DNA from: Jaapia argillacea MUCL 33604
Taxonomy: Eukaryota > Basidiomycota > Agaricomycetes > Jaapiales > Jaapiaceae
DNA length: 34,102 nt
Direction: 5' to 3'
Assembly (NCBI GenBank): GCA_000697665.1
Contig: KL197790.1
Location: forward strand, 29,559-63,660
Below, piece after piece: positions 3,569 through 34,102 of the stretch. Positions within the stretch are counted from its first letter, which is position 1, and each line of letters begins with the position of its first letter. The position numbers and the translations under genes are program-made. The notes beneath the pieces were generated by a model that was not told where the DNA came from, did not search any database, and saw only the letters and a program-made list of their open reading frames with translations.

Positions 3569-3925
3569 GACTCTGTGTTGCCCAAGTCAAGGTTATCTTT
3601 GACCTACCCCATCAACTGCAATCAACTCCAGAATGCCCACCTTTGGCCTACGTAGAGTGGTTCACTCCATTCCACTCTTATGACCCTTGGTCAGATCTAT
3701 TCTTTGTTTCACCATCTACACGGAACCATAGACATCATGCTGAAATTATTTCACTTGAGCATATTGTATGCAATTGTAATCTGGCTCCCTGGCCAGGTAC
3801 AAAGATCAATAGAGCATGGACAGCCCACAACATATTCAATGAGTGCCAATCCTTCTATCTGAATGTTTGGATAGACTTGTTTATGTTTTACTTCCTGTGC
3901 TGCGCTCACAATACAGTTATTTGAG

Positions 3926-4116
3926 TTTTGATGGAGGCTTCTCAATTTCTAGCCATGTTGGTCCAGATAGTTTCTCTAGGATTGTATGGGAATTCTGCAC
4001 AGATTCTGTAGCATAGATAGACCTACTGTGTGGTAGTCCTGCTCTATCATGCCTATCAAGTCAATATTGATGTTGCTTTCTTCTACAATACCAACATTAG
4101 CTATCTCCAGCTACAG
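3926..4116. other. Non-coding 3' flank of the Plavaka-like element
   Basis: No credible gene. At 3991-4010 the sequence AATTCTGCACAGATTCTGTA resembles the dyad core of the 1-1010 array, and a GATAGACC string follows at 4015-4022. It may be a remnant of the same repeat on the other side of the transposase. Confidence 0.35.
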
Positions 4117-4735
4117 TGTAAGGACCTTCTTATATCATATTCATGTTTTCCAGATGGTCTGTCCATCATCCCTCCACCTGTGAATGTCTTCCGCAATGCT
4201 AATCGAAGATAACCGACCATTTTCATCAGCCGAAACTTCAGATCCCTGCAATCCGCCCAAGATCCTGTCGAAATCCAATGGCACCTGGATGCAGAGGCTC
4301 AATTCTATAATTGTCTGCAGTGGAACATCAGCATCATTGCCATCATTGTTCTTGGGGCCATATCCTTTCTCACCAGTGTCTTCTACTGAGCCCAGGATTG
4401 GTCCAATTTTTGCCTCAATTTTGCCTCAAAACTGTGGGCAGGTCTTCAGGTATATCCTAGGAGCAACGGAGGTAACTTCGGTTGTTGTGAACGTGTCCGG
4501 TCCCTACCAGAACCCATCCTGACCCCACATTCCTTACTGACTCAGCACCTTTCTAATCCGTCTCAAGTGGCTGAAATGCTGTATTACTTGATATCTCTAT
4601 TCAGTCGCTCCTTATGCCTTACAGACCATGCAGGGCTCCTCTATCTATGCCCACAACCCTATGCTATGTGTATAAAGTCCTTACTGTGTTGTATACTTGA
4701 GTTCCTTAGTCTACCGTGAACAGAGAGAGCTTACA
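4117..4735 (+). repeat. Putative 5' LTR of gypsy element 1
   Basis: The segment starts TGTAAG and ends CTTACA, a perfect 6-bp terminal inverted repeat with the canonical TG...CA ends. It contains a TATA-like box and lies directly upstream of gag. No matching 3' LTR is seen in the window and no primer-binding site was recognised, so the boundaries are proposals. A short open frame at 4184-4522 falls inside and shows no recognisable domain. Confidence 0.45.
4671..4677 (+). promoter_or_regulatory. TATA-like box in the putative LTR
   Basis: TATAAAG, 64 bp before the proposed LTR end and upstream of the gag reading frame. Its position suits a U3 promoter. Confidence 0.45.
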
Positions 4736-4903
4736 CTGGTTCTTTCATTCGTGTGAAGACTACCTATTCTGGCTAGTGTTGCATGCCCAGGTTATTCCCT
4801 TGCCATGACATATTTTGAACCCTATCTGAATTCTCTGTTTTTGATTTAATCTCTGCTTCTTTGCTCTCATGCATCTCTGGGATTGTCTTCAGTCTGATCA
4901 ACC

Positions 4904-5889: not shown

Positions 5890-7943
5890 ATTGGCCCAAT
5901 TACTGAGGAACCATCATGTGTTGGGCAGGGAAATCTGACTTTGATAAGAAGCCTTCCATAAATGGTAACTCATCTGCTGATAAAGCAGCTGCTGTATCTG
6001 TTGTGTCGGTTCCTCAGCATTCGAAGCTGAAATCCAAGTGTCCTCGAGCTCCAGCTAAATCCGTCCCCCCTCCTAGCAATAGTGAGGAGGAGGATAATTT
6101 TATTAATCAATCTGAGAGTGAACCTATCTGCCCTAAGAAGCGGAAGGAGCATCTGGGGAAAGCAAGTGGAGGGCGACGTTCTGGAAGTAAGAATCCAGAA
6201 CCCCCTAGCAAATGATCTGTATTGAGATTGTTATTCCCTCAAAACCGGGGTGATTTGCCTTTGGACTCCCCCTCCTCCACCAATCTGTTGGTTTCAGGGT
6301 CGGATTCCAGTGATTCAAGTGATGGATCTGATGATCCTGATCCTAAACCCCGGAAGCACAGTAAAAAGTGCAAATCTAAGAAGAAGACCCATAGTAGGAT
6401 TAAGCCTCATGAGCCCACTGTCTATAACGGTGCGGCTGATGCTACGATCTATGTGAAATTTGTTCACGACTCCTGGGACTACTGCTCAGATAGGGAAATT
6501 GAGAAATCTAAGCGAGTTAGATATGTATCTCATTTCTTATCTGGCACTGCACTCAAATACTACACTGTTGTGGTGTCGAGATCAAGCAGTGAATGGTCCC
6601 TTTTGAAGTTTTTCAAGGGATTATTTGATTATTGCTTCTCTAAGAATTTTAGGCAGATGCAAAGGACTGAGTTGAGGAGGTGTAATCAAGGATCTTTGTC
6701 AGTCCGTGAATACGCCCATAAACTACTGGTCTACTTCAAAATAATTGGTATGATTGGGAAAAGCAAGCAGGTTGACAAGCTATGGAATGGCTTGTGTCAT
6801 GATATCCAGTCTCAATTATGGAAAGCCTACCTCAATCCCGAAACGGCATCTTGGGAGAAGGTAGTTGAGGTAGCTGAAATTATTGAGAAGGCTGAATCCG
6901 TTGATCACGGCAGTAGAAGTCATAACAATAATATTGGACCATCAAACCCTAAGCCTAGAGGGCCAGGGGGCAGCAGAAATGGGCAGAGTTCGTTCAGACT
7001 GAAGCCCAGTAATGAGCATTCCAGAAAAGGCAACCATTCTGTCAATTCTGGTAATGCGCATCATCAGAACCAGGGGAGTGGTAACAGGACTGCTAACAGA
7101 GGCAATTCATCCCATCAATCTGGTTCTCGCATGTTGACTAGTAAACCTTCGCTCTCAGACAAAGAGAAGAAGGAATTCATGGCCTCTGGGAAATGCTTTA
7201 AGTGCAGACACGAGGGCCACTTGGCTCGCAACTGTACTCAAGATAATTATGTGAAGTCTGCTACTGCAACCATCAATGAGGTTGAATTAAATGCTGTCTA
7301 CATCCTTGAGGATGAGTGGGTTAAGAATTCTAGATATGCCTACTCGCATTTGGCACCTAGAGAGTCTTGGAAGAATCGAAGATTGACTCCAGTGCCCATA
7401 GGCAGACCATTAGCTGTTAGAGCCGCCCATATTCTCTCTCGCGAATCTCCCTACCTGGGGGATGAGGGGAATGGGGTTAGGTTTCCTGGCGAAATGGAGT
7501 CCCTGGATCGATTCTTAGTCTACAGAGTCTTTCTGGGGGACACTTTCTGTATTATTGATACTACCAATCACATGGATACAATAATTAAGGAAGAACTGCT
7601 ACTCAATCTGGATTTTCCCCTCGCTATCTGGTATGGAGAGCATAGGACTGGGGAGTACAAGTGTACCAGTTGGTGGATTGGACCTACTGATAATCACTTC
7701 CCAAGGGATAGCCTTATGGGGACCCCTGTACAGGATAGAGTGGAAATGCTTCTACAAAAGCACGCACCTTATGTGGGGGACCCTTATTCATGGTGGGGCC
7801 ACCAGGAATATAATCAGTTCCGATGCCATATAGAAAATGGTCAGTTTTTGGTACAGGACAGATTCTGGGATCAGGTTATTCCCCTTCCCCTGGAAATCAC
7901 CTATTGCCTGAAATATGACATAGTAGGGTGGTTAAACACTTAA
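5890..7943 (+). pseudogene. Gag (capsid and zinc knuckle), gypsy element 1
   Basis: The frame is interrupted by a TGA at 6213-6215. An acidic and basic linker (Ser/Asp run, then a Lys/Arg-rich stretch) precedes a retrotransposon-gag-type helical domain at about 6425-6900, with FLSGTALKYY and SVREYAHKLL. A CCHC knuckle CFKCRHEGHLARNC follows at about 7195-7236. Its spacing is C-x2-C-x4-H-x4-C, the usual nucleic-acid-binding form. After the knuckle the frame continues about 235 residues without a domain I can name and ends at TAA 7941-7943, in what is otherwise the same frame as pol. Gag would package element RNA into cytoplasmic particles. Confidence 0.85.
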
Positions 7944-10565
7944 TATTAGGAAACCTGGAGACTTCCTGTGTATTGGGAAGGTCCTATGCATATTGATGCA
8001 TTATTCTACCCCAAGGAGAACTTACCTTCAGTAGGGGAATCCGCTCATCCCTCAAGAATGCGGGAGAGACCTAATATTTGGGGACACAGTCTGGTTGAGC
8101 TAGTAATTGAATTAAGTTTGGTGAATATCGAACCTACCTCCTACAAGGCCCTGGAATGAAACTCCTCATCGACTCAGGATTTTCGAAGGGTGATTCTGAG
8201 TCCCCTCATCATAGTAGTACAAATTGAGGGGTCTCCAGCATGTGCCTTGCTGGATTCGGGATCACTAACGGATTTTATGGCTACCCATTTAGTGGATCAA
8301 TTAAAGATTCGCAAAAAGGAGTTGGAGAAACCCTTACCTGTTCAATTGGCTGCTCAAGGCTCCAGGATGAAAGTCAACTGGGGTGCTACAGCCAATTTCA
8401 GCTATCAGGGAATTAACTGTGAATGATACTTTGATGTGGTGAACATCCAGAATTATGATTTAATCCTGGGAACACTGTTTCTGTTTCAGTTTAAAGTCTC
8501 AATAGGATTAAATCCCCCGAGTGTGATAGTGGGTAGTAACTCATCTTTACCTCTGAAGGGGATGTCCATCAGAGTCCTGGAATTGAGAGTGGCAGATATT
8601 TACCATGAATCACTGGATCAAGTCTGGAAGGACTTGATGCAGTATGCTCTTCTGGTGTGCCTGGATGGAAAGGAGGCCCCCCTCCCACCATTCAGGGATA
8701 TTAACCATGAGATTCCATTGAAAACCAAGAATGCTGCTTACCATTGGAGGCCTGCTAAATGTCCAGATGCCCATAGGGCTAATTGGATTGAGAAGCGGGA
8801 CTCTTACCTTTGTAGTGGTCGGTGGGAGGTGTCAAATGCCTGGAATGCGAGTCCTATGCTTCTATTAACAAAGCCTGGGACTGGAGTGAAGGGTATACCA
8901 CCCCAGCTACATATAGCAGTCGATTTGAGGGAGAGGAATGCCAATACTGAGAAGCTTACTACCCTGCTTCCCAATATAGAAGGCATACTTCGGCGTGTTG
9001 TGTGGAAGAAGTACCAATCAATCCTTGATCAAAAAGATGCTTACAAGCAGGTTCGTATTGTCCCCAAACATGTTGATTGGATGGCAATGATGACACTGGA
9101 TGGAAATATGGTTTCCTTGGTTGTGCAGCAAGGGGATTGTAATGCCCCTGCTACCTTCCAATCCTTAATGAACTATATATTTGCACCCCATCTGGCTGTA
9201 TTTATGGACATTTATTTAGATGATATTATTGTCTACACAGACACACTCGAGGAGCATGTCCAGGTAATACATATTATTATAGACATACTTAAGAAAGAGA
9301 AACTGTACCTCAGTTCTTTGAAGATCCACTTCCTCTGCAAGGAACTAAAGATCTTGGGCCAAATTGTCAACGATGAGGGGATTTGTATGGACCCTAATAA
9401 GGTTGACAATGTGTTAGCATGGAAAACCCCAACGAACCAGGACCTCTTGCAAGGTTTCCTTGGGTTGGTAGGATATTTGGTGGAGGACTTACCTTCCATG
9501 TGGATTCCTATGGGTACTCTGTCAGCTCTGACAGGGGATGCTTCTTCATTTCGATGGGGACCTACTGAGCAAAGGGCTTTCGAGGAGGTTAAATCATTAG
9601 TCCATGCATGTTGGGAACACTGCTGGAAACCTTTGGATTACTCACCTGAGGCCAATCCTATTTGGCTTGTCACTGGCTGGTTGCATGGGGGGTTGTCCAG
9701 GGTGGTGAGCCAGCGGAAGGATTTTAAAAGTGCTCGGGTAGCGGCTTTTTACTCTGCCAAGCTGAATACAACTCAGTTGAATTATCCAGTTCATGAAATT
9801 GAGATGCTCGCTGGAGTAGAGGCGATGCTGAGACATTGCAACATACTCCAGGGAGCCTCCTTCACCTGGTTAACAGATCACAAAGGGCTAACTCACCTGA
9901 TGACCCAATTGAAGCTTTCGGGACAGCAGGTTTGTTGGCTTGAGAAGATCACTGAGTTTGATTTTACTGTGAAGTATGTCCCCAGGACTGAGAATGTCCT
10001 GGCAGATGCTCTTTTGAGGATCTACACAAATGATGCCCCAGGCACCGTTAGATCGCAGAGTGAATACACTTACCATGATGAGGACCTTAACTCTGGTCTG
10101 GAGGGCGTGAGGATTTCAATCCTTCTCATAGTAGGAGTGGAGGCTATGGTGATTGTGCCAGTATTGCCCCCTGAATCGGGTTGCCTGGAGACTGCCAAGG
10201 AGTTTGCCAAGTGTATAAAGTGTGTGCATCTGCGGGTTACCCCAAAAGATGCACAGGAGGGTGCAAGGGTACAACCCAAAAGCACAGAGTCTGAATCTGT
10301 GAAGTCAAAACCAACAAAGGTTAAAGACACGCAAGACACAGATCAGTTAGCCGATCATATCACCAAAGTCCAAAATGAAATCGCGGGAATTTTAGAAGCC
10401 GTGCCAAAGGCTGATAAGATATCCAATGCGGATTTGGGACTTGTTAGCCTGGTGATGTCAATTACTGGCATTGATCTAATCTCTGAGATAAAGGGCCGCT
10501 ACGGCGAGGACCCATTCTTCAAGATTATACTAGCAGATTCTCCCATTACAAGAACTTCAGTGTGA
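7944..10565 (+). pseudogene. Protease, reverse transcriptase, RNase H, gypsy element 1
   Basis: Frame 0 continues from gag. Stops are TAG just after gag, TGA at 8157-8159 and TGA at 8424-8426; the latter two sit where relatives have Arg. Aspartic protease motif ALLDSGS has its Asp at 8253-8255. RT shows WEVSNAWNASPMLLL, DLRERN, QQGDCNAPATFQ and the catalytic YLDDI at 9213-9227. RNase H keeps HEIEMLAG and TDHKGL, but the first catalytic Asp (VTDG in relatives) reads VTGW, with GGC at 9675-9677. Activity is therefore doubtful even without the stops. A Lys/Glu-rich spacer follows, and the frame closes at 10563-10565. Confidence 0.9.
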
Positions 10566-18059: not shown

Positions 18060-19306
18060 ATTGCAAACATACTCCGTCTTGTCAGCAAGAAGTTCAATGA
18101 TATTTTCTCTCCACATACATTTCGGAAGGTTGTTATTGGACAGGTAGGGAAAGGAATAAAGGGATCAAGGGTGGAGGAGATAAAGGAAGATGTGTGGTAA
18201 AATCAGGTTAAGAGTTGTATTCAGCCCAGGATATGAGGTCACAGATGGGTTCTTGGAGAGTATTGGTTTTATGGAAGGATCACAGGTACTGCATTTGCAT
18301 GGAGATGCATATCGGATTCAAGAAGCACTTCAGATCATACCCTTTGATCAATTGCAGGGCTTGCGAGTTGTAACGTTGGAGGCAATTGATTTCTTGGAAG
18401 GAATTGGGAGAGTAAGGGAGGCAATAGGATTGAAGGAATTGAAGATTCAGTATGTGGGGATTGCAGGTGTGGAGGTGGACAGTGCAGCCTTTTTTCCAAC
18501 GACTGGCAGTTATTTGGAAAATTTGGAATCATTGACAATTGTGGATAGGTATCACGAGCCCTGGCATTATGGCTTAAATGTCCGAGCACTCAAAGCACAT
18601 CTCAACACCAGCGGATCATCCTTGTGGAGTCTGACGAAGTTGTCAGTGAATGAAATCACCAACTGGAGAATCATGGTACCTGTGTTGAAGCATCTTCCAC
18701 AGTTGATTGCTTTGACTGTGATATTTGGCAAACCACCTGAGCCAAAAAACATGGATCCGACATTACTTCCACAGTTGGAGTATATGGATGGGCCCATAGA
18801 TTTGATTTTGTGGTTCTTAGATGGGTGATGCAATTGCAGGGATTTATTCAATTGTCATCATCCCTTGCAGCTTTGCTTCCTTTGTCGAGTCCATCATTTA
18901 TCAACAGGATTCCACATGGGTTAAAGTCAATCAGATTTTGGATTGACAAGCCAGGCACTTTGCCACACATTATCCTCAAGGTTATGGATCGATGTGTTGA
19001 GTTGGAAGAGATTAGTGTGGACATAGTCGATGGTACCTATGACAAATTTACAAGTGATATTATCAAGGTCAGCTAATTTTAATGTTTGTTTCACCAATAT
19101 TAACGTTTGTACTGCAGGACTGGGTCGCGGCAATGTTGCTTCCATTCAATCAATACGGAATTCAAGACATACACTCGTTGCAGATCACTGGACTCATCAT
19201 AAATTCAGCATTCAGGATTGAAGATCACATTTACGTATCACAACCCCCTTCTCAAGTTCAGAACATGATCGTGGAGGCATTTCAAGAACATCCGACATTA
19301 AATTGA
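18060..19306 (+). pseudogene. LRR/F-box-like gene 1, with frame breaks
   Basis: The first recognisable part, ILRLVSKKFNDIFSPHTF (18069-18122), resembles the end of an F-box followed by its hinge. Such proteins are substrate adaptors of SCF ubiquitin ligases. A leucine-rich region follows (18190-18828: LRVVTLEAIDFLEG, GLKELKIQYVGIAG, LENLESLTIV, LPQLIALTVIF), then 18838-19067 (LKSIRFWID, CVELEEISVDIV). An intron lies at 19068-19117, and the last exon runs 19118-19306 (IHSLQITGL). Frame changes near 18144-18200 and 18815-18840 have no convincing intron and are probably one-base indels. The start codon is not identified. The same intron position, before (D/E)W, occurs in LRR gene 2. Confidence 0.6.
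19068..19117 (+). other. Intron of LRR gene 1 (50 nt)
   Basis: GTCAGC...CTGCAG with a CTAAT-type branch site near the donor side. It joins SDIIK to DWVAAMLLPF in phase 0. Confidence 0.7.
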
Positions 19307-20133
19307 TGGTTACTGATCACATGGTGTGGCATTGGAATGGATGCGAACTGGTGTGGAGCATAAATCCAGGTCCAGTTTATCCTAAAGATAGTCTTGTAGA
19401 TCCGCAAGGAGTGGATGCATGGATGTCATTTCCAGGACAGGTTGGTTTGCAATATGTACAACAGTAGATTAATAGGTTGTTTGAAAGGTTGGCTGGCGGT
19501 TTAGTAGTCTCTATGGTCATTAGTTGTCAATGTTTGTCGATGCAAGTATTGATAGGCATTATATATATATTCTCGTAACATGTGAAATTTGACAAGAATA
19601 TAAATAGAATGTTCAGGTATACTATAGTCAATGACTTTTGATTAGTTCTGATACCATTTTACGAACTCCACACAGTCTTGGCTTTTGAGACACATTCTAC
19701 AATATACACCAATACTTACTGTACCATTTTGATCACTTCAGCAGGGCATGTGACCTGTGACCACGATGTTTCAATTCATCATTTTGGCACTTTGCATTGA
19801 GGCCTGTGACAAAACAAAAATTTCAGCACTCAGTGGGTGAAAATTGTATTTTTTCAATGTCATACCACTTTAGCACGATGCTATTAGTACCAACGAGCCC
19901 AGTTAGCATGAAAGCTGCATGAAACAGCCCCAAAAGCGCCAAAACCAAGCCCAGAAATGCACTTGAGTGATTTTTGAAATGTCGGCCCTGTGACAACCAA
20001 ATTTTCGATTAGTCACCTGTGACCAACCAACAAAATTCGTCTGGCAGAGGGCCTTGTGACATGTGATACACTGAATTGATTGAAATGGTTCGATTCTGAT
20101 CATGAGAAATACAGAGGATGAATTTCAATCTCC
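19307..20133. other. Non-coding stretch with a CTGTGAC motif cluster
   Basis: No gene. Exact CTGTGAC occurs at 19755-19761, 19804-19810, 19988-19994 and 20017-20023, with near copies at 20053 and 20060, all in one orientation within about 310 bp. It may be part of an insertion lying between LRR gene 1 and the duplicated segment. Confidence 0.5.
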
Positions 20134-20260
20134 GTATGGAATGGGTGTTGCCAAGATTCGTGATGTTTATCACAAAGAGATGCCTACATTCGGAAGATTC
20201 ATTATTGACGAGTATTTACTTATTTGTGGTCGTCATAGGATTTGTGTGGACTTGGGGTAA
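20134..20260 (+). pseudogene. C-terminal remnant of an LRR gene
   Basis: Frame YGMGVAKIRDVYHKEMP ... EEYLLIC-like ... CVDLG then TAA. It corresponds to the end of LRR gene 2 (30561-30687). Only the end of the last exon is present, and the sequence upstream is unrelated, so it cannot be a complete gene. Confidence 0.75.
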
Positions 20261-20462
20261 GATTCTGATATGAATTGTTTGTTGAATCAGATGAAACTCG
20301 TATATTCAGTCCTTCTCATTGTGTTTGGCAATGTTTAAAAAAAACTGCAGTGTGTGGAATACATGAATGTACACCTACAGCTTGGTATACAAACTGTGAT
20401 TGCGATAATCCGTGAATCATATGTTGTGATCAGAAAAAATTGAATAGCTTTGGTTGATTACC

Positions 20463-20944
20463 CTAAAGCACATCCGAACCATGTTGAAAGCCATCAATAT
20501 CTTCATTGCTTTACTCAATGGGCGACTTACCGCCTCTCCCACGTGACTTTCCTCTCTTGAATGGTACTGAGAACACTTTACTGGGCAATTTGATTGGACG
20601 AAGAGTTGAATCTGTTTTGATTGTTGAGTATTGAATTGTTAATTGAATGTTCCTGTGTCAAATATTTCTTACCCATTGGGATGTAAGTATGCAAGTTGGC
20701 TGTGACATGAGCACCGGAACTTCCCAATCCCGAAGCATTCATTTGATCTGTTGGATAACTTGAGCTTGATGTGTTCCCAGAGCTGTCACAATGCCAGTTG
20801 CACCAACGTGTATATTTGCCTAATATTTGCAGTTTTGCACCCAATAAATTGCTAATCTCATTACATTCCAGTCCAAATTACTCACTCTCATCACCGCAGG
20901 CAGATGAATTATCTGTAGCAAGTGAAGAATGTGTGCTGTCAGCA
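20463..20944 (-). pseudogene. 3' exons of the protease-like gene, truncated copy
   Basis: Homologous exons lie at 20886-20944 (cut by the junction), 20673-20819 and 20531-20611. They keep the splice sites and phase seen in the full-length copy, and exon 20531-20611 still reads STLRPIKLPSKVF ... RGRG. The last acceptor is changed from CAG to CGG (plus-strand 20474-20476), so the terminal exon could not be spliced as in the other copy. With no 5' part it is a dead fragment. Confidence 0.7.
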
Positions 20945-20969
20945 AAATCTTATCTTATCTTATCTTAGA

Positions 20970-21398
20970 TGTTTATCTTATCTTGGATGTTTATCTTATC
21001 ACAGACTTATACTATTATTAGCACACAATAACTCGTTGCGTACAGCCTCATCATTGTTCTCTGTTTGATTGTTCTATCTTCATTGTTCATCGTCATTATC
21101 TTAAACCTTAACTCACTTGCCATTGTCCCTAGACATTGTCTCATTTGTTATTGTCCATAGTACATTGTTCGATATTCCATTGTTCTCTTAGTATATAAGG
21201 ACACCTAGCTACTCTGTATTTGGTAGCTTGTCCACTTGAACAATATGCACTTTCAGCTGTATCCTTCAACTGGTTCGCTCATCCTCATCATCCTCTATCA
21301 CCTCAAGATTGTAGCCTGAGTACTTGTTAGCAAGAAGTATCCAAAAGACTTACAGGCCTTACTCACGACTCTATGCTAACGCTAGAGCACTCGTAACA
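20970..21398 (+). mobile_element. Solo-LTR-like element at a junction
   Basis: Starts TGTTTATC (or at the second copy, 20988), has TATATAAG at 21192-21199, a pyrimidine-rich downstream part, and ends CGTAACA: the layout of a plus-oriented LTR. It is preceded by short TTATC repeats at 20949-20966. The left neighbour is the truncated duplication; the right neighbour is integrase of gypsy element 2 cut in mid-domain. Flanking 5-mers differ (GCAAT on the right, not on the left). Confidence 0.5.
21192..21199 (+). promoter_or_regulatory. TATA box in LTR-like element
   Basis: TATATAAG, about 200 bp before the element's end, as in fungal LTR promoters. Confidence 0.45.
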
Positions 21399-22480
21399 GC
21401 AATTGGGAGAAGCAATGGCCAATTGTTCTGATTTTGGTTACAGAATGTTTGAAGATAGACTTCTGTTTCTTGATTGACTTTCTCTGTAGCTCCATCAGTT
21501 TGTGGGTGGAAGGCTGTACTGAGTGCTGATCACACTCCAAACCAATCAAGAAGGGTTTTGAGTACTGCTGATGTGAACTGGGGTCCTCTATCAGATATCA
21601 ATTTGTCTGGGAATCCATAACACCAGAAGGCGTTGTTATAGAGAATTTCTGCAGTGCCTTCAGAGTCTACCGTTTTGTGGCAGGGTGTGATGATAGCAGT
21701 TTTGGTGGATGTGTCCATGGCTATGTGTATAGCATCGTATCCATCAGCTGCTGGTAATCCTGTGAGGAAGTCATTGGTGACAGTTCCAAATGGTCATTCT
21801 GGAATTTCCGTGGGGTGGAGTGGTTCCTGGGTCAGGTGTGTTTGAGGTTTCATTGTGATGAAGATCTAATGAAGCGACTGGTTAGAAGCACACAGGCGGT
21901 GAACTCAACATCTGTTCAAAGAGATAAATCCTCAGACAAGGCTTGTAAGACTTGATCTATTAGAAAGGTAAATACCTGTACAAAGAGATAAATTACAAGA
22001 CAGGTTAGTCCAGGAAGTACATAGGATCATACAAGAGACTTACTCCTCAGACAAGGCTTGTAAGACTTGATCTGAGGAGCTGAGGACGCAACCCACACAG
22101 TTTATATAGACCACAGAGGATAGCATGACGTCATAGAAAGAAATGCATAGAAAAGGGTAGAAACTGTGATCACACAATACTGAGCAAGGATGATACAAGG
22201 ATGGGCAAAGGATTGCTCTATCTACTGACTAACTATCTTACTCAGCTACCTACCAGCTGACATCACACTGACTGAGACTGTGCAAGTCGCATTCTAGCAA
22301 GTTCCGTCAAGGACAAGCAGCATGTCTGTGACTGTGACATCACATGATGGTGACATCACACTGCTTCAACACATTGATTGACAGATAGCGCATCCATCAA
22401 CATATTCCTTGATGAAGATCAACATTGCAGGCCACCAATAGTCTCTTTGCACAATCTCCAGTGTTTTGTATCGTCCTGGA
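21399..22480 (-). pseudogene. Integrase, gypsy element 2, interrupted
   Basis: Starting at the high-coordinate end, the zinc-binding part (DYWWPAML and YVDGCAIC, about 22380-22460) is followed by the nested LTR. The core then resumes: GLPAADGYDAIHIAMD, LISDRGPQFTSA and, after a TGA near 21528, [14 protein letters not shown]. The three acidic residues of the DDE core are still readable. The end of the protein is missing at 21399. It would join element cDNA to the chromosome if intact. Confidence 0.8.
21856..22371 (-). mobile_element. Nested solo LTR with 5-bp target duplication
   Basis: 516 bp, minus orientation: starts TGTTGAAG, ends CTTCATCA (7 of 8 inverted match). It is flanked on both sides by CATTG (21851-21855 and 22372-22376), a perfect 5-bp target-site duplication. 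A TATATAAA box lies at 22102-22109 on the minus strand. A 29-bp direct repeat (21930-21958 and 22045-22073) is internal. The host integrase frame can be followed up to both flanks. An LTR without an internal region is the product of LTR-LTR recombination. Confidence 0.88.
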
Positions 22481-24869: not shown

Positions 24870-25945
24870 TTAAAAACCCGATTTGGAGAACTCATCTTTC
24901 ATAGCCATGAAGAGTTCCCCTTGGTCATCTTCTGGGATCTGAGTGACCAGCTTCTTGATCTGGTTGATGATAGAACTGGGCTGTGCGTTTTCTTCAGTCG
25001 CATCAGCTGTTCTGGCCTGAAAGGATTTGCCCTTTTTCAAGGGACATTGTCCAGAGAAGTGGCCTGGTTTGCAACAAAAGAAACAAGCTCCTTTCTTTTG
25101 AAGGTCAAGTCGTTCTTCAGGAGTGAGTTTCTTGAATTGCTTCTTGGATCCAGTTTTGGCTGCATCAACATCCATAGGAACTCCTTGACTATAGTCCCTA
25201 GATGGAGCCCACCAATTGGTCTGGAAAGCTGAGGGATAAATTGGTCCTTTCCCTTTTCCTTCTTGCCAAGTTTTCTCTGCTGCTGCTGCTTCTCCTAATA
25301 ATTCAAATTTGGCAGCCATGTCCTGAAGAGATGCTAAGTTTTTGGGTGGGTTTGGTAGTTTAATGATTTGTTCGAGGATTTCCCACTTGAGCCCACATTT
25401 GTAGGCTTCTATGAGTCCTATATCATTAAACCCAGTGTGCCTTGCTAACTCGTTGAAGGCGGCAGTAAAGGAGTCAGCCAAAAACCTTCCTTGTTTAAGG
25501 TTTTGGATTTGTGTGTGAGCAGATCGTCTTTTATTGATTTCTGCAAAATCTTTTTCCAGAGTTTTATAGAATTCTTTGACGTCTAGAAGCGATTCTGTGT
25601 CTGGGTCATATTTGTTAACCCAATTCATTGCCCATGATCCTGCTGGTCTGTCTTTCATATAAGACAGAATGAAGGCGATTTTGGAGAATTCGGTGGGGAA
25701 GTCTTTTGGTTTGGCCTCGATGAACAATTTGACTTCAGAGACAAATTTAGCTGTCTTTTTTGTATCTCCAGTAAATGGAGTAGGAGGAGACAATTGTGGT
25801 CCTTTCAAATCTCCTGCCATATCATTGTCTGAGTCGTCTGGTTGGTTACCAGGATTAGGGTCGGGAGATCCTCTAGGTGGATCAGGAGATGGGATTGGGC
25901 AGGTGGGGGATGATACAATCCAAAGTGATGAGGGATTGACATAAC
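24870..25945 (-). pseudogene. Gag, gypsy element 2
   Basis: A continuous 316-residue frame from Met at 25820, with in-frame Pro-rich sequence upstream to about 25945 (PDPPRGSPDPNPGNQPDD). The capsid-like domain includes FTGDTKKTAKFVSEV, ILSYMKDRPAGSWAMNW and LARHTGFNDIGLIEAYK. The zinc knuckle is CFFCCKPGHFSGQC at about 25075-25116. This gag frame is intact, unlike the rest of the element, but its N-terminal extension continues in another frame. Confidence 0.82.
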
Positions 25946-29450: not shown

Positions 29451-29622
29451 CATCCCTGCCATTACCAGTATCCCATTTTTCTTAATACACAGTCATTATA
29501 AAGTAGATCCTAGCTAGCCTAATTCAATTCATTTTTGGAGCCTCTATAACGAGAGAACCTCTCTATGGCTGCTATAAGTGGACTCTTTGGGATGCCCCTC
29601 TCTAAGCCTTCAACAATGAGGT

Positions 29623-30687
29623 GATGAAAATAATTTCACTATAGAACTCTTCCATGAATCTGGGGAAGCTATAGAATCTTCTTCTGGAAATGGCAGTGCT
29701 ATTATAGTATTTTTTAAGGGGCACCCTTGGTATAATGACTTTGAGTTCTATTATGTCTACTTACATGCTTCTAGGTGCTCCAAGTTCCAAACCTTTTTTC
29801 CTGATGCCGTTGATTTTGGTCAATATCTTCCACTTGTACCTTGGACATATCTGCAGGAGTTGTCAATCACAAAGCTAGTGATTCCATGGAGACTGGTGGA
29901 AGGTTATTTGAGTGGTATTACAGGGGTAATACTGCAGCTGAAGAAACTCGAAGTCACAGAAATTGTCAATTTCACAAGCTTCATCGGCATACTTGAATCA
30001 TGTCCTTGGATTCACACTCTTTCCATAGGCAAATCTCCTGTTTACACGCTCAGCATGCCCTCATTTCCTGTCCTCATCCATCTGAAGCATCTGACAGCCC
30101 CTGCCCATCTCCTTGCAACAATTTGTGTATTGCCAGGAGTCAATGCAATTTCGATACCCTCCAGTTTATCTCCTAAGGGCTGACTTGATGATTATGATGT
30201 CTGTCTTCCATCTCATCACCCTTATGACACTCAAATTGCATTATCTGATATACCTACTGCCACGTCTCAAGAACTTGTTCATTTTGCATATACTTCATTT
30301 GATCATGGAGTAAATTGTCCAAGATTCCTGGGCGATGTAGTACTTGTTGTTGCTACATTCCCTCTATTACCCTCACTGGAAATTTTGTGGCCACGTTTTG
30401 GCAATGCGACAATTACTTGTGAGGTAAATGGATATTCTAAATTGAATAGATTTTACACTGATCAAACATTCTAGGAGTGGATTATGGCAGCACTTCTGCA
30501 TCTGAAGCAGCTTTCCTTACTGGAGAGTTTGGTTGTTTTGGGTAGCAACAACAGCAACATGTATGGAATGGGTGTTGCCAACATTTGTGATGTTTATCAC
30601 AAAGAGATGCCCACATTAGGAAGATTCGTTATTGAGGAGTATTTATTGATTTGTCGTGGTCAGAGGATTCATGTAGACTTGGAGTAA
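29623..30687 (+). pseudogene. LRR-type gene 2 with one in-frame stop
   Basis: One frame runs from about 29623 to 30687 with an intron at 30424-30474 and a single TGA at 30181-30183. LRR-like lines: PWTYLQELSITKLVIPW, LQLKKLEVTEIV, VLIHLKHLTAP, FPLLPSLEILWPRFG. The last exon starts EWIMAALLHLKQLSLLESL. These resemble the variable leucine-rich parts of basidiomycete F-box/LRR proteins; no F-box is seen at the 5' end, which is poorly defined. The final 127 bp (30561-30687) are part of the 811-bp duplication. It ends 202 bp from the end of the convergent gene. Confidence 0.65.
30424..30474 (+). other. Intron of LRR gene 2 (51 nt)
   Basis: GTAAAT...TTCTAG, joining ATITCE to EWIMAALLHL in phase 0. 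The position matches the intron of LRR gene 1, directly before the (D/E)W pair. Confidence 0.7.
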
Positions 30688-31371
30688 GATTCTGATACCA
30701 ATTGTTTGTTGAATCAAATGAAACTCATATATTCAGTCCTTCTCATTGTGTTTGGCAGTGTTTAAAAAAAACTGCAATGTGTGGAATACATGAATGTACA
30801 ATTACAACTTGGTATACAAACTGTGATTTTGATAATCTGTGAATCATATGTTGTGATCAGAAGAAATTGCATAGCTTTGGTTGATTACCCTAAACCACAT
30901 CTGAACCATGTTTAAAGCAATCGATATCTTCGTTGCTTTGCTCAATCGGCAACTTACCGCCTCTCCCAACCAACTTTCCTCTCTTGAATGGTATGGAGAA
31001 GACTGTCCTGGGCAATTTGATTGGACAAAGAGTTGAATCTGTTTTGATTATTGAGTATTGAATTGTTAATCTAATGTTCCTGTGTCAAATATTTCTTACC
31101 CGTTGGAATGTAAGTATGCAAGTTGGCTGTGACGTTAGCACCAGAACTTCCCGATCCCAAAGCATTTGTTTGATCTGTTGGATAACTTGAGCTTGATGTG
31201 TTCCCAGAGCTGTCACGATGCCAGTTGCACCAGCATGTGTATTTACCTAATATTTGCAGTTTTGCACCCAATAAATTGCTAATCTCATTACATTCCGGTC
31301 CAAATTACTCACTCTCATCACTGTGGACAGATGAATCATCTGTAACATGTGAAGATTGTGTGCTGTCAGCA
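30561..31371. repeat. 811-bp segmental duplication, copy 2
   Basis: Counterpart of 20134-20944, same length, same orientation, 10,427 bp away. Here both genes continue beyond the duplicated block, so this is the source-like copy. Confidence 0.92.
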
Positions 31372-31497: not shown

Positions 31498-31735
31498 TAC
31501 CTCTGTTGTAAAAGTCATTGTGCTCAGTGTGGGTATCCACAGCAGTTATGGCAGCTGCCAAACAGGTGTAAAACTTTTCTGTTTAGCATATATTGGTACA
31601 AGTCGTTGAAATTGATTACCTCTGTTGTAATAACCATTGTTCTCGGCATCGAGATTCACAGCAATTATGGCAGCTGCTAAACGGGTGTGAAATTCGGCTG
31701 TTTAGTATATATTGGTATGAGTCGTTGAAATTATT
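31498..31735 (-). repeat. Two 119-bp exon-plus-intron modules
   Basis: TACCTCTGTTGTAA recurs at 31498 and 31617. Each module has a 78-nt exon (31697-31620 and 31578-31501). The intron between the two exons is 41 nt and contains a TGCTAAACAG branch/acceptor segment. The peptides align: FHTRLAAAIIAVNLDAENN and FYTCLAAAITAVDTHTEHN. Borders are phase 1 on both sides. The next exon (31400-31313) encodes AYTSLAASYADSTQ and looks like an older third copy, now one base out of frame. Confidence 0.85.
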
Positions 31736-32440
31736 GTAGTTGGTGTATTCACCTGATTCTCTGGCAATGTGTTCTTCATCTTTGCATCTGTCATCAGAAT
31801 GCTTGTGAAATAGGTTGAAAGGATCAGTTTGTGGTCCATTGCTTCCAAACAAATTTGTGTTTCCGTCTGCTGACGGATCCTTGTCCATTGTGTGGTCAGA
31901 GTCTTGTTCTTGAGATGGACTTCTATTTTGAAGATGGGACTGAGATGGTGACATTATGAACCCATCAGATGTATTTGATGTGTCTGTTAAATTTTTATTG
32001 ATTGATTTTATGAGAATATATATATTATTTTGCAACACACCGACTGCATGAGGTTGATCAAGGATCGACTCAACATCTCGAGTCTCAATTGTAGCATGTG
32101 GTGGTTGCAATTCAATTGCAGGTGGAATAAATGGATGGAATATGTTGTGGCCAATAGAACCTTGTGAAAGATCTGATGAAATGAGTCTTCTAGGCCATCC
32201 AGCGATACGCTCAAGAATGATTCTATCTGGCACTACACGATCTGGGAAAGGAAAAGGTTGATCGACTTTTGACCATATACATAAAGATTGATCCATTACA
32301 TTGAATTACGGATTTAACTCCAGCATTCTTGTCTATCGGGGAGTGGATATGGCTTTTCTTAATCGATACCTCTGCTTCTGTGTCATGAATTAACATTTTC
32401 TTTTGATGTGATAGGGTGCTGTTCAATTGAGAAGGCATTA

Positions 32441-32824
32441 CTCACCACTTGATTTGGTAGGTTCATCTTCCTCACCTTTAGCAGGAACAGATTTGGCCGT
32501 GGATGTTTTGGCAACAATATCATTGAAACATAGCATAAGCTTGAACTGTTACATTGAAAATGTCATTGCTCACCACTAGTTTCGGCAAGTTCATCTACCT
32601 CATCTGTAGAAGTAACAGACTTGACCTAAGACTTCTTGCCAACTACATCATTGAAACATAGGATAAGCTTAAATTGATGAATTGAATATGTTGTTACTCA
32701 CCACTCGTTTCGGCGAGCTTGTTTACCTTATCTTTCGAAGGAAGGGACTTGGCCATTGACTTTCTCACCCCTATATCATCAAAATGTAATGTAAGCTTGA
32801 GTCAGGCATCCTAGCAAAGATTAG
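32441..32824 (-). repeat. Three 128-bp exon-plus-intron modules
   Basis: CTCACCACT (the donor, minus strand AGTG-GTGAG) recurs at 32441, 32569 and 32697, exactly 128 bp apart. Each unit holds a 69-nt exon encoding a (K/S/T)-rich peptide (for example MAKSLPSKDKVNKLAETS and KSVPAKGEEDEPTKSS). The two introns between units are 59 nt each. All have phase-1 borders, so gain or loss of a unit keeps the frame. The middle exon has a TAG stop. The acceptor before the lowest-coordinate exon reads TTG for TAG. Confidence 0.88.
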
Positions 32825-34102
32825 GGGCTCTACCTTTTTTTCACTTGGTTGCAGGAATTGGCTTGCATATGATTTGACCTGGAGGGATCACTACTTCTTC
32901 GTCATCCGTGTCTCTCTCATGTTTTTTCCATTGTGTCTTCTGCTTGGTTACCGGTGTGTATTCTTCATCCTCCTCAACATAAGTACTAGTCAGGGAGTGG
33001 GCCACCGTGTGGCGTGGCATGAACGATTCCCAAAACACTGTTTCACTTCCATCTTGTATAAATTAGAGCAGTTGCATGTTTATTGTTCTTGTATTTCAAA
33101 GAGGTATTATTTAATGTTGATTTGTGTCCTTCATAAATTGAGTTCTCCCCAGGGAGAATACCATCATTGAACCATATATCTCCATTAGCTTGAATAATCC
33201 TTGCATTGTAGTGAAAGTCACCAAAGTATACTACACCTCTAAGACTCATTACATCATCATCAGCTACATCAATGTCTTTTTCAATCACAGTATGATCAGG
33301 AGTGTCATTTAAGGCCCAGAACCATTATGTCTGGAATCTTATGATAGTCTAGTATAACTGATGTGTTACCTGTGCATCTTCTTTTAATGCAAGGTGTTGT
33401 ACTTTGCTGAAATATAGTTTGTATGAACGATGTCGTAGACAGATCACCATTATCTGCATTGTTTACTAAAGGATTACAAGTTAGCACTCCATCAGAAAAA
33501 TTTGCATTAATCCAATTATGATTGCAAGTATTGCATTTGAATAACATAGGTGCAGCAGATTTTTTTGTATGGAGAATGTGTTTGCATACATTGATAAAGT
33601 TGTAACCATTGCCAGTATCATCTGTATGTTCATGTAGGGTGTTTCTTACAGTTTCTAGGTTGCTTTCTTGATTGTCTATTTCTTGAAACCCATGAAATAA
33701 TCTTTTCATTGCTAAATTCACAGGTAGCTTTTGTGTGGTAGTCCAGTCATCTTTGTGATCATTCCATATAGAATGCAGTATAACTATTGCAGCATCAAAT
33801 GCACAGCTGTTGTTGTTCCACATCACTGATAATGGTTGTGAAGGTACTCTTTCTTTTTTACGTGGCTGATTGTCATCATCTGGATCTAATTTTCTCTTTT
33901 TTCATTTTGTGTGTGCATGGTTTTCAGTTTTTTTCTTGGTCTGTTCTCTGATTCATCATTACATTTTCTTTTTGTTTTGAGTTCATGTGAAGAAGTTGTA
34001 TTGCATTTGACTTTAGAATTCATACTTTCTACATTTTTGGGTTTGAGATTGTCTTTATTATTTTGTTCTTTCAATTGAGTTTTAGTTGGTTTGTTCTTCT
34101 GC

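Follow-up and report, generated by a model that had tools for sequence, protein, structure and literature searches.

Tandem duplication is an established source of new exon-intron structure, and the parts of PMC2891723 drawn on here deal mainly with introns created by duplications within coding exons. The array described below resembles this class in having head-to-tail copies of an exon with its intron and a frame kept by matching intron phases. Relative to the cases treated in those parts of PMC2891723, which lie mostly within exons, its breakpoints appear intronic, its units number three and its gene is a fungal orphan. The LRR genes of Tetrahymena provide a second close system. The sections of PMC6564038 used here describe arrays of 90-bp exons with phase 2 introns and propose unequal crossing-over as their origin. 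According to those sections, fixed-length symmetric exons were multiplied together with their introns and their number varies among members, as in our case, and a retroelement adjoins many of the youngest arrays, which we list as a further likeness. The Tetrahymena system differs in scale and kind: it runs to thousands of genes with as many as 51 exons, and has phase 2 introns and an LRR domain (PMC6564038, same sections), whereas the array here has three units, phase 1 borders, a linker without a domain match and only a handful of loci. Overall, the array is a well-documented case of a known process, tandem exon duplication, within a decaying gene family restricted to one lineage.

The window, that is, the whole stretch of 34,102 nucleotides that we analyzed, is the end of contig C82 (KL197790.1, bases 29559-63660), and its right edge at position 34102 is the contig end. 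It belongs to the 43.7-Mb assembly of Jaapia argillacea MUCL 33604, which comprises 95 contigs labeled here by C-numbers. J. argillacea is an agaricomycete and a wood-decay fungus. An Rfam search of the whole window returned nothing at gathering scores. At its left end, the window holds a separate tandem array (1-715) with a 43-bp unit, 17 copies and a 167-bp higher-order period. Retroelement genes occupy 6222-10565 and 24870-25820, with a weak gag and zinc knuckle, reverse transcriptase and RNase H; a Ty3-type capsid gene on the minus strand stands apart from these. Plus-strand frames at 29620-30684 are convergent to the array gene and appear F-box/LRR-like by eye, and the two pieces scanned had no Pfam match. 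Dispersed copies of the overlapping block at 29803-30853 share about 92-93% identity. Pieces of it recur in the window at 18270-21404, where they match C12 and C22.

An earlier note, made from the letters of this DNA, had proposed that an exon was tandemly multiplied with its intron into three exact 128-bp units. The repeat was confirmed. Tandem Repeats Finder reported a period of 128 at 32425-32714 and 32425-32751, and identity at a lag of 128 was 0.731 over 32446-32770, as compared with a mean of 0.255 over the 139 remaining lags between 60 and 199. In 1000 dinucleotide-preserving shuffles, the highest identity at any lag from 60 to 199 was 0.418, and 0/1000 reached the observed value. The description "exact" holds for the period, which is 128 throughout, but not for the sequence, since the units compared pairwise in fixed register are identical at 97, 78 and 73 of 128 positions (57-76%). 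Likewise, the count of three is correct for the exons, but only two whole introns are present. The array therefore spans 325 bp, consisting of three exons and two whole introns, and the outer introns are not full copies of the unit.

The array and its gene lie on the minus strand. Exon U1 (GVRKSMAKSLPSKDKVNKLAETS; 32702..32770) is 69 nt long with phase 1-1 borders and is followed by intron I1 (32643..32701; 59 nt, GT...AG). Exon U2 (32574..32642; 69 nt) contains an in-frame TAG at 32628-32626, and intron I2 (32515..32573; 59 nt) has lost its acceptor, which reads TTG at 32517-32515. Exon U3 (VAKTSTAKSVPAKGEEDEPTKSS; 32446..32514) is again 69 nt, with its 3' border placed by alignment with the other units. 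The array is flanked upstream by a 63-bp intron, I0 (32771..32833), and downstream by I3 (32378..32445), which is unit-like only near its 5' end. Before I0 lies the remaining 3' part of exon E_b (32834..32984), which carries a TGA at 32843-32841, is cut off by a Helitron and is homologous to the interior of L005:4322-4846, an extract of C49, and to the C1 extract L006. Downstream, homology with C49 defines the 78-nt exon E_c (32300..32377), followed by a 58-nt intron (32242..32299) and exon E_d (VPDRIILERIAGWPRR...; 32029..32241), which has homologues in C1, C49, C22 and C12 and a 3' border that is not fixed.

The closer family is found at seven places in the assembly: the window on C82, C49, C1, C54, C45, C22 and C12. 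Comparison of unit number among these relatives, as the earlier note had suggested, revealed that it varies. The copies in C82, C49 and C1 each have three units, C22 and C12 have one, and the cut-off copy in C54 has two (U1 and U2, with no U3). The C45 copy is without the array, and the family match there stops before the array position. Every one of the 11 array units has a GT donor, and all but one, U3 of the window, have an AG acceptor (10 of 11). All 11 array exons and both exons of the one-unit copies are whole-codon and phase 1-1 as bordered, although the left border of U1 in C54 was placed by alignment and the DNA flanking it is unrelated. Because the units are whole-codon and phase-symmetric, each adds 23 residues without a frame shift, as had been claimed.

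The C54 copy ends where a high-copy repeat starts at the array edge: the match to another locus ends at 4816 of the C54 extract L007, and the array match starts at 4815. This repeat has at least 40 matches in the genome (of 76 candidates, 40 received a score and all of these matched) and, as a guess, could be an LTR. We had considered a mobile unit at the AACAG edge that the window intron shares with the C54 fragment, and discarded it because the C54 edge is itself reached by the high-copy repeat. The same extract contains about 14 copies of a 129-bp unit in tandem (L007 1-1769). Despite the close period, this is an uninterrupted repeat that looks WD40-like by eye and that we took as unrelated.

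The gene itself had few points of reference. Pfam scans of pieces of the array family gave nothing above the curated cut-off, and a PDB sequence search with the upstream domain of the family gave no match. Protein relatives were found only in Jaapia (1, 2 and 3 matches, within the reach of a word-based search). One of these searches matched two proteins, from C49 and C1, and the window copy matched none deposited. A further Jaapia protein among the relatives agrees in sequence with C45. In the open-access literature, we found no description of the family or of a comparable fungal exon array. Within the reach of these searches, the gene is an orphan of J. argillacea and belongs to a lineage-restricted decaying fungal family.

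The copy in C49 offers the clearest view of the gene. When its exons are joined at GT/AG borders, no stop interrupts the frame across seven exons, the three units included, before a TGA in E_d. The six introns measure 58-64 nt, and the first exon is taken to begin where its frame opens, which is not a mapped start. The deposited models for C49 (JAAARDRAFT_199787) and C1 (JAAARDRAFT_187419) both include the three units. Each model splices at every unit acceptor (U1, U2 and U3) and at the donors of the first two units, so that five of the six predicted borders are used and the U3 donor is not. In the C49 model, U3 is left through an earlier donor and the next exon is read in a different frame, while the C1 model exits the preceding exon early and then meets a stop after U3. 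From these models, we infer that the units are spliced at the predicted borders, the last donor apart.

The window copy is in a different state. It is interrupted by the Helitron and carries the TGA before the array, the TAG in U2 and the lost acceptor before U3; taken together, these defects mark it as a pseudogene fragment. The suggestion that individual units are decaying separately was upheld, as the TAG and the lost acceptor are both real and the other copies are intact there: the U2 stop is absent from C49, C1 and C54, and the U3 acceptor is AG in C49 and C1. C1 shares the TGA of the window but has neither its TAG nor its lost acceptor. C49 is free of these three defects and has its own stop farther downstream.

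We next considered how the array arose. The ancestral gene would have had a single 69-nt, phase 1-1 exon coding for a lysine/serine/acidic linker. Two rounds of tandem duplication, with breakpoints in the introns on either side, would have generated three units separated by new introns. These introns would be hybrids, taking their 3' halves from the upstream intron and their 5' halves from the downstream intron. Phase symmetry of the exon, and the charged linker that it encodes, would have made the duplication tolerable. The three-unit gene would then have been copied to several places, where copies diverged unit by unit, and the window copy would later have lost function through the Helitron in the preceding exon, the stop in a unit and the lost acceptor. 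We consider tandem exon duplication with breakpoints in the flanking introns, followed by dispersal and decay, to be the probable history of the locus (probability of roughly 0.83). The order of these events, unequal exchange or replication slippage as their cause, and a longer linker as their effect on the protein are what we infer within that history.

The introns retain traces consistent with hybrid origins. The 3' halves of internal introns resemble I0 of the same locus in 6 of 6 cases (p = 0.0005-0.028), and their 5' halves resemble the downstream intron of the one-unit copy in C22 in 5 of 7 cases (p = 0.003-0.015), where p values derive from simple shuffles, are from non-independent tests and are uncorrected for their number. 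The remaining two comparisons gave fewer resemblances on the same terms: 5' halves resemble the locus's own I3 in 1 of 6 cases, and 3' halves resemble the upstream intron (I0) of C22 in 1 of 7 (p < 0.05). Of the first 24 bases of the array introns, 14-20 agree with the downstream intron of C22 and 6 with its upstream intron.

The relationships among units indicate when triplication took place. Exons at the same position in different loci are 83-91% identical, as compared with 61-72% for different units within a locus (U1 of C1 excluded, which has a 6-nt deletion that is the sole length change among array exons). In a tree of the units, U1 was split from the rest with support of 100/98 and U3 formed a group with 84.5/72; U2 units had no supported group, and a neighbor-joining bootstrap gave no usable clades. 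As units group by position rather than by locus, triplication therefore preceded the dispersal of copies. C22 and C12 have a single 69-nt exon at the same position in the gene. Its homology to the array exons is drawn mainly from gene position, length and phase because the exons are only 49-58% identical. The one-unit state could also be a loss rather than the ancestral condition.

The 128-bp array is not the only in-frame duplication in the family. A second array lies downstream on the minus strand of the window, where exons X1 (31620..31697) and X2 (31501..31578), each 78 nt and phase 1-1, are separated by a 41-nt GT...AG intron (31579..31619). Identity at a lag of 119, the length of this unit (78 + 41), was 0.756, and 0/1000 shuffles reached it. 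The 119-bp duplication also occurs in C1 (L006 5938-6162), and C22 and C12, read by eye, appear to have the 78-nt exon once. In C49, and in that copy only, the exon before the array contains an internal tandem duplication (L005 4351-4527 versus 4555-4755; 74% identical, unit of about 204-228 bp) within which the frame is open. Finally, a distant relative in C14, 25% identical in the upstream domain, has an independent 198-bp tandem copy with a whole intron and breakpoints inside exons (L032, about 3662-4059), which adds 46 residues in frame as bordered. Tandem Repeats Finder missed this duplication, and its silence on C11 and C13 is hence weakly informative.

Such cases raise the idea that the linker and tail are hot spots of independent in-frame duplications, in which length is tuned by exon number and unit exons outpace introns. 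This reading takes in the threefold 128-bp, twofold 119-bp, in-exon 204-228-bp (approximate) and twofold 198-bp duplications, with or without an intron, and we hold it only tentatively, as rather unlikely. A stronger version is that selection on linker length and charge drives repeated duplication, which would make it adaptive and not merely tolerated. The four separate in-frame duplications in the linker or tail speak for selection, as does the comparison of C82 with C49, in which array exons diverged about twice as fast as introns (26/207 versus 7/118 differences, p = 0.059). Furthermore, dN was about equal to or above dS in three of four unit comparisons (dN/dS of 0.95, 1.9 and undefined with dS of zero). 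However, the fourth gave 0.43, the compared sequences were only 66-132 nt, and exon and intron divergence in the other five locus pairs gave p values of 0.09-1.0. Moreover, the window copy, at least, is a pseudogene and others carry stops. We therefore regard selection for linker length as an unlikely driver. The units look weakly constrained on these comparisons; for the upstream domain of C49 versus C45, dN was 0.117 and dS 0.342. Separately, we looked for a deamination signature between C82 and C1, where CpG-type transitions make up 63 of 311 differences, and make no claim from it because CpG depletion is general in the window.

A rival reading of the array is a coding-neutral minisatellite, a 128-bp repeat that merely resembles an exon and intron. 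Differences between units at the same position are spread about equally over the three codon positions (30, 40 and 36 of 276 each in 12 same-position pairs), the window copy is broken, and the U3 donor goes unused in both deposited models, all of which would suit a neutral repeat. However, a minisatellite would not account for the conservation of donors and acceptors across the units or for the restriction of length change to one 6-nt deletion in U1 of C1. It also conflicts with the one-unit homologue at the same gene position, and with a C49 copy that is open throughout and gene models that splice five of six unit borders. Hence, we consider the neutral repeat very unlikely and retain tandem exon duplication as the better reading of the array.

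The earlier note further interpreted the array as a linker between a protease-like domain and the C-terminal part of one protein. The two lie on the same strand with close spacing in the window, and a frame at 32844-33062 spans their junction. Nevertheless, the frames that had been called protease-like (33308-33901 and 33046-33324) fall in a segment that matches C46 at 93.8% identity over 32985-34102, and the match stops at 32985. A genome search with the last 160 bases of the segment gave 11 matches, including the window, of which 8 were full-length and 3 covered only the last 47 nt, the latter perhaps representing non-autonomous elements. In 10 of 10 loci examined, the window included, the segment ends in CTAG followed by T, with an end of the type (C/T)(C/G)ACTAG, and the 60 bases beyond CTAG|T are unrelated (8-26 of 60 identical over 45 pairs). 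As the 160-base matches end at the end of the query, the element edge rests on the C46 match stop and the flanks of these 10 loci. A weaker match in C12 (75%) passes the junction by 23 bp under permissive scoring, but its flank is unlike that of the window (21 of 60 positions identical). On these boundaries, a Helitron has been inserted in the gene, and its 3' end makes up the DNA upstream of 32985 (minus strand, 32986..34102, running beyond the contig end), with the terminus ...CTGACTAG at 32986.

Other features of this segment fit the assignment unevenly. The protease-like frame recalls a deubiquitinase, which we take to be a resemblance only, and a PDB sequence search with it gave a single chance-level match (E 0.39). 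Deubiquitinase domains are known from animal Helitrons, as stated in the portion of PMC9741609 used here. A subterminal hairpin (GCCAC/GTGGC; 5-bp stem, 3-nt loop) lies 11 nt before CTAG. Upstream in C11, a distant relative that is 40% identical, there is a PIF1 helicase frame (E 2.5e-14); the pieces of C46 scanned with Pfam contained no helicase. Fungal Helitrons such as HELPO1 and HELPO2 of Pleurotus ostreatus have a CT[A/T]G 3' end and an AT insertion site in the part of PMC4289320 drawn on here. The likeness to them consists of this end and site and concerns the neighbor at 32986-34102, not the array. In contrast to HELPO1 and HELPO2 as covered there, the window hairpin folds no better than shuffles (z = -0.04), the 5' end falls outside the contig, and a helicase was seen only in the distant relative in C11.

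With the junction at 32985 being the Helitron end, the proposed protease-linker protein does not stand. Its protease-like frame hits a stop before the junction, and the arrays in C49 and C1 are preceded by a different upstream domain, unlike the protease-like frames of the window, that we leave unnamed. A single gene joining all three parts is accordingly extremely improbable. Equally improbable is repeated insertion of a mobile, introner-like 59-nt intron into an already repeated coding stretch, which could explain why the two internal introns within a locus are 80-85% alike when the exons are 61-72% alike, but which is contradicted by genome searches with I1 of the window and I2 of C49 (6 and 7 matches among the best candidates, all in arrays) and by the similarity, described above, between the starts of the array introns and one intron of the one-unit copy in C22.

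These results matter in two ways. The end of a transposon beside a gene can pass for one of that gene's domains. In the family itself, the presence of one-unit and three-unit relatives in one fungal genome allows the breakpoints, phases and age order of a tandem exon duplication to be read directly. If the linker and tail are indeed hot spots of in-frame duplication, the family would offer a compact setting in which to ask whether linker length is under selection.
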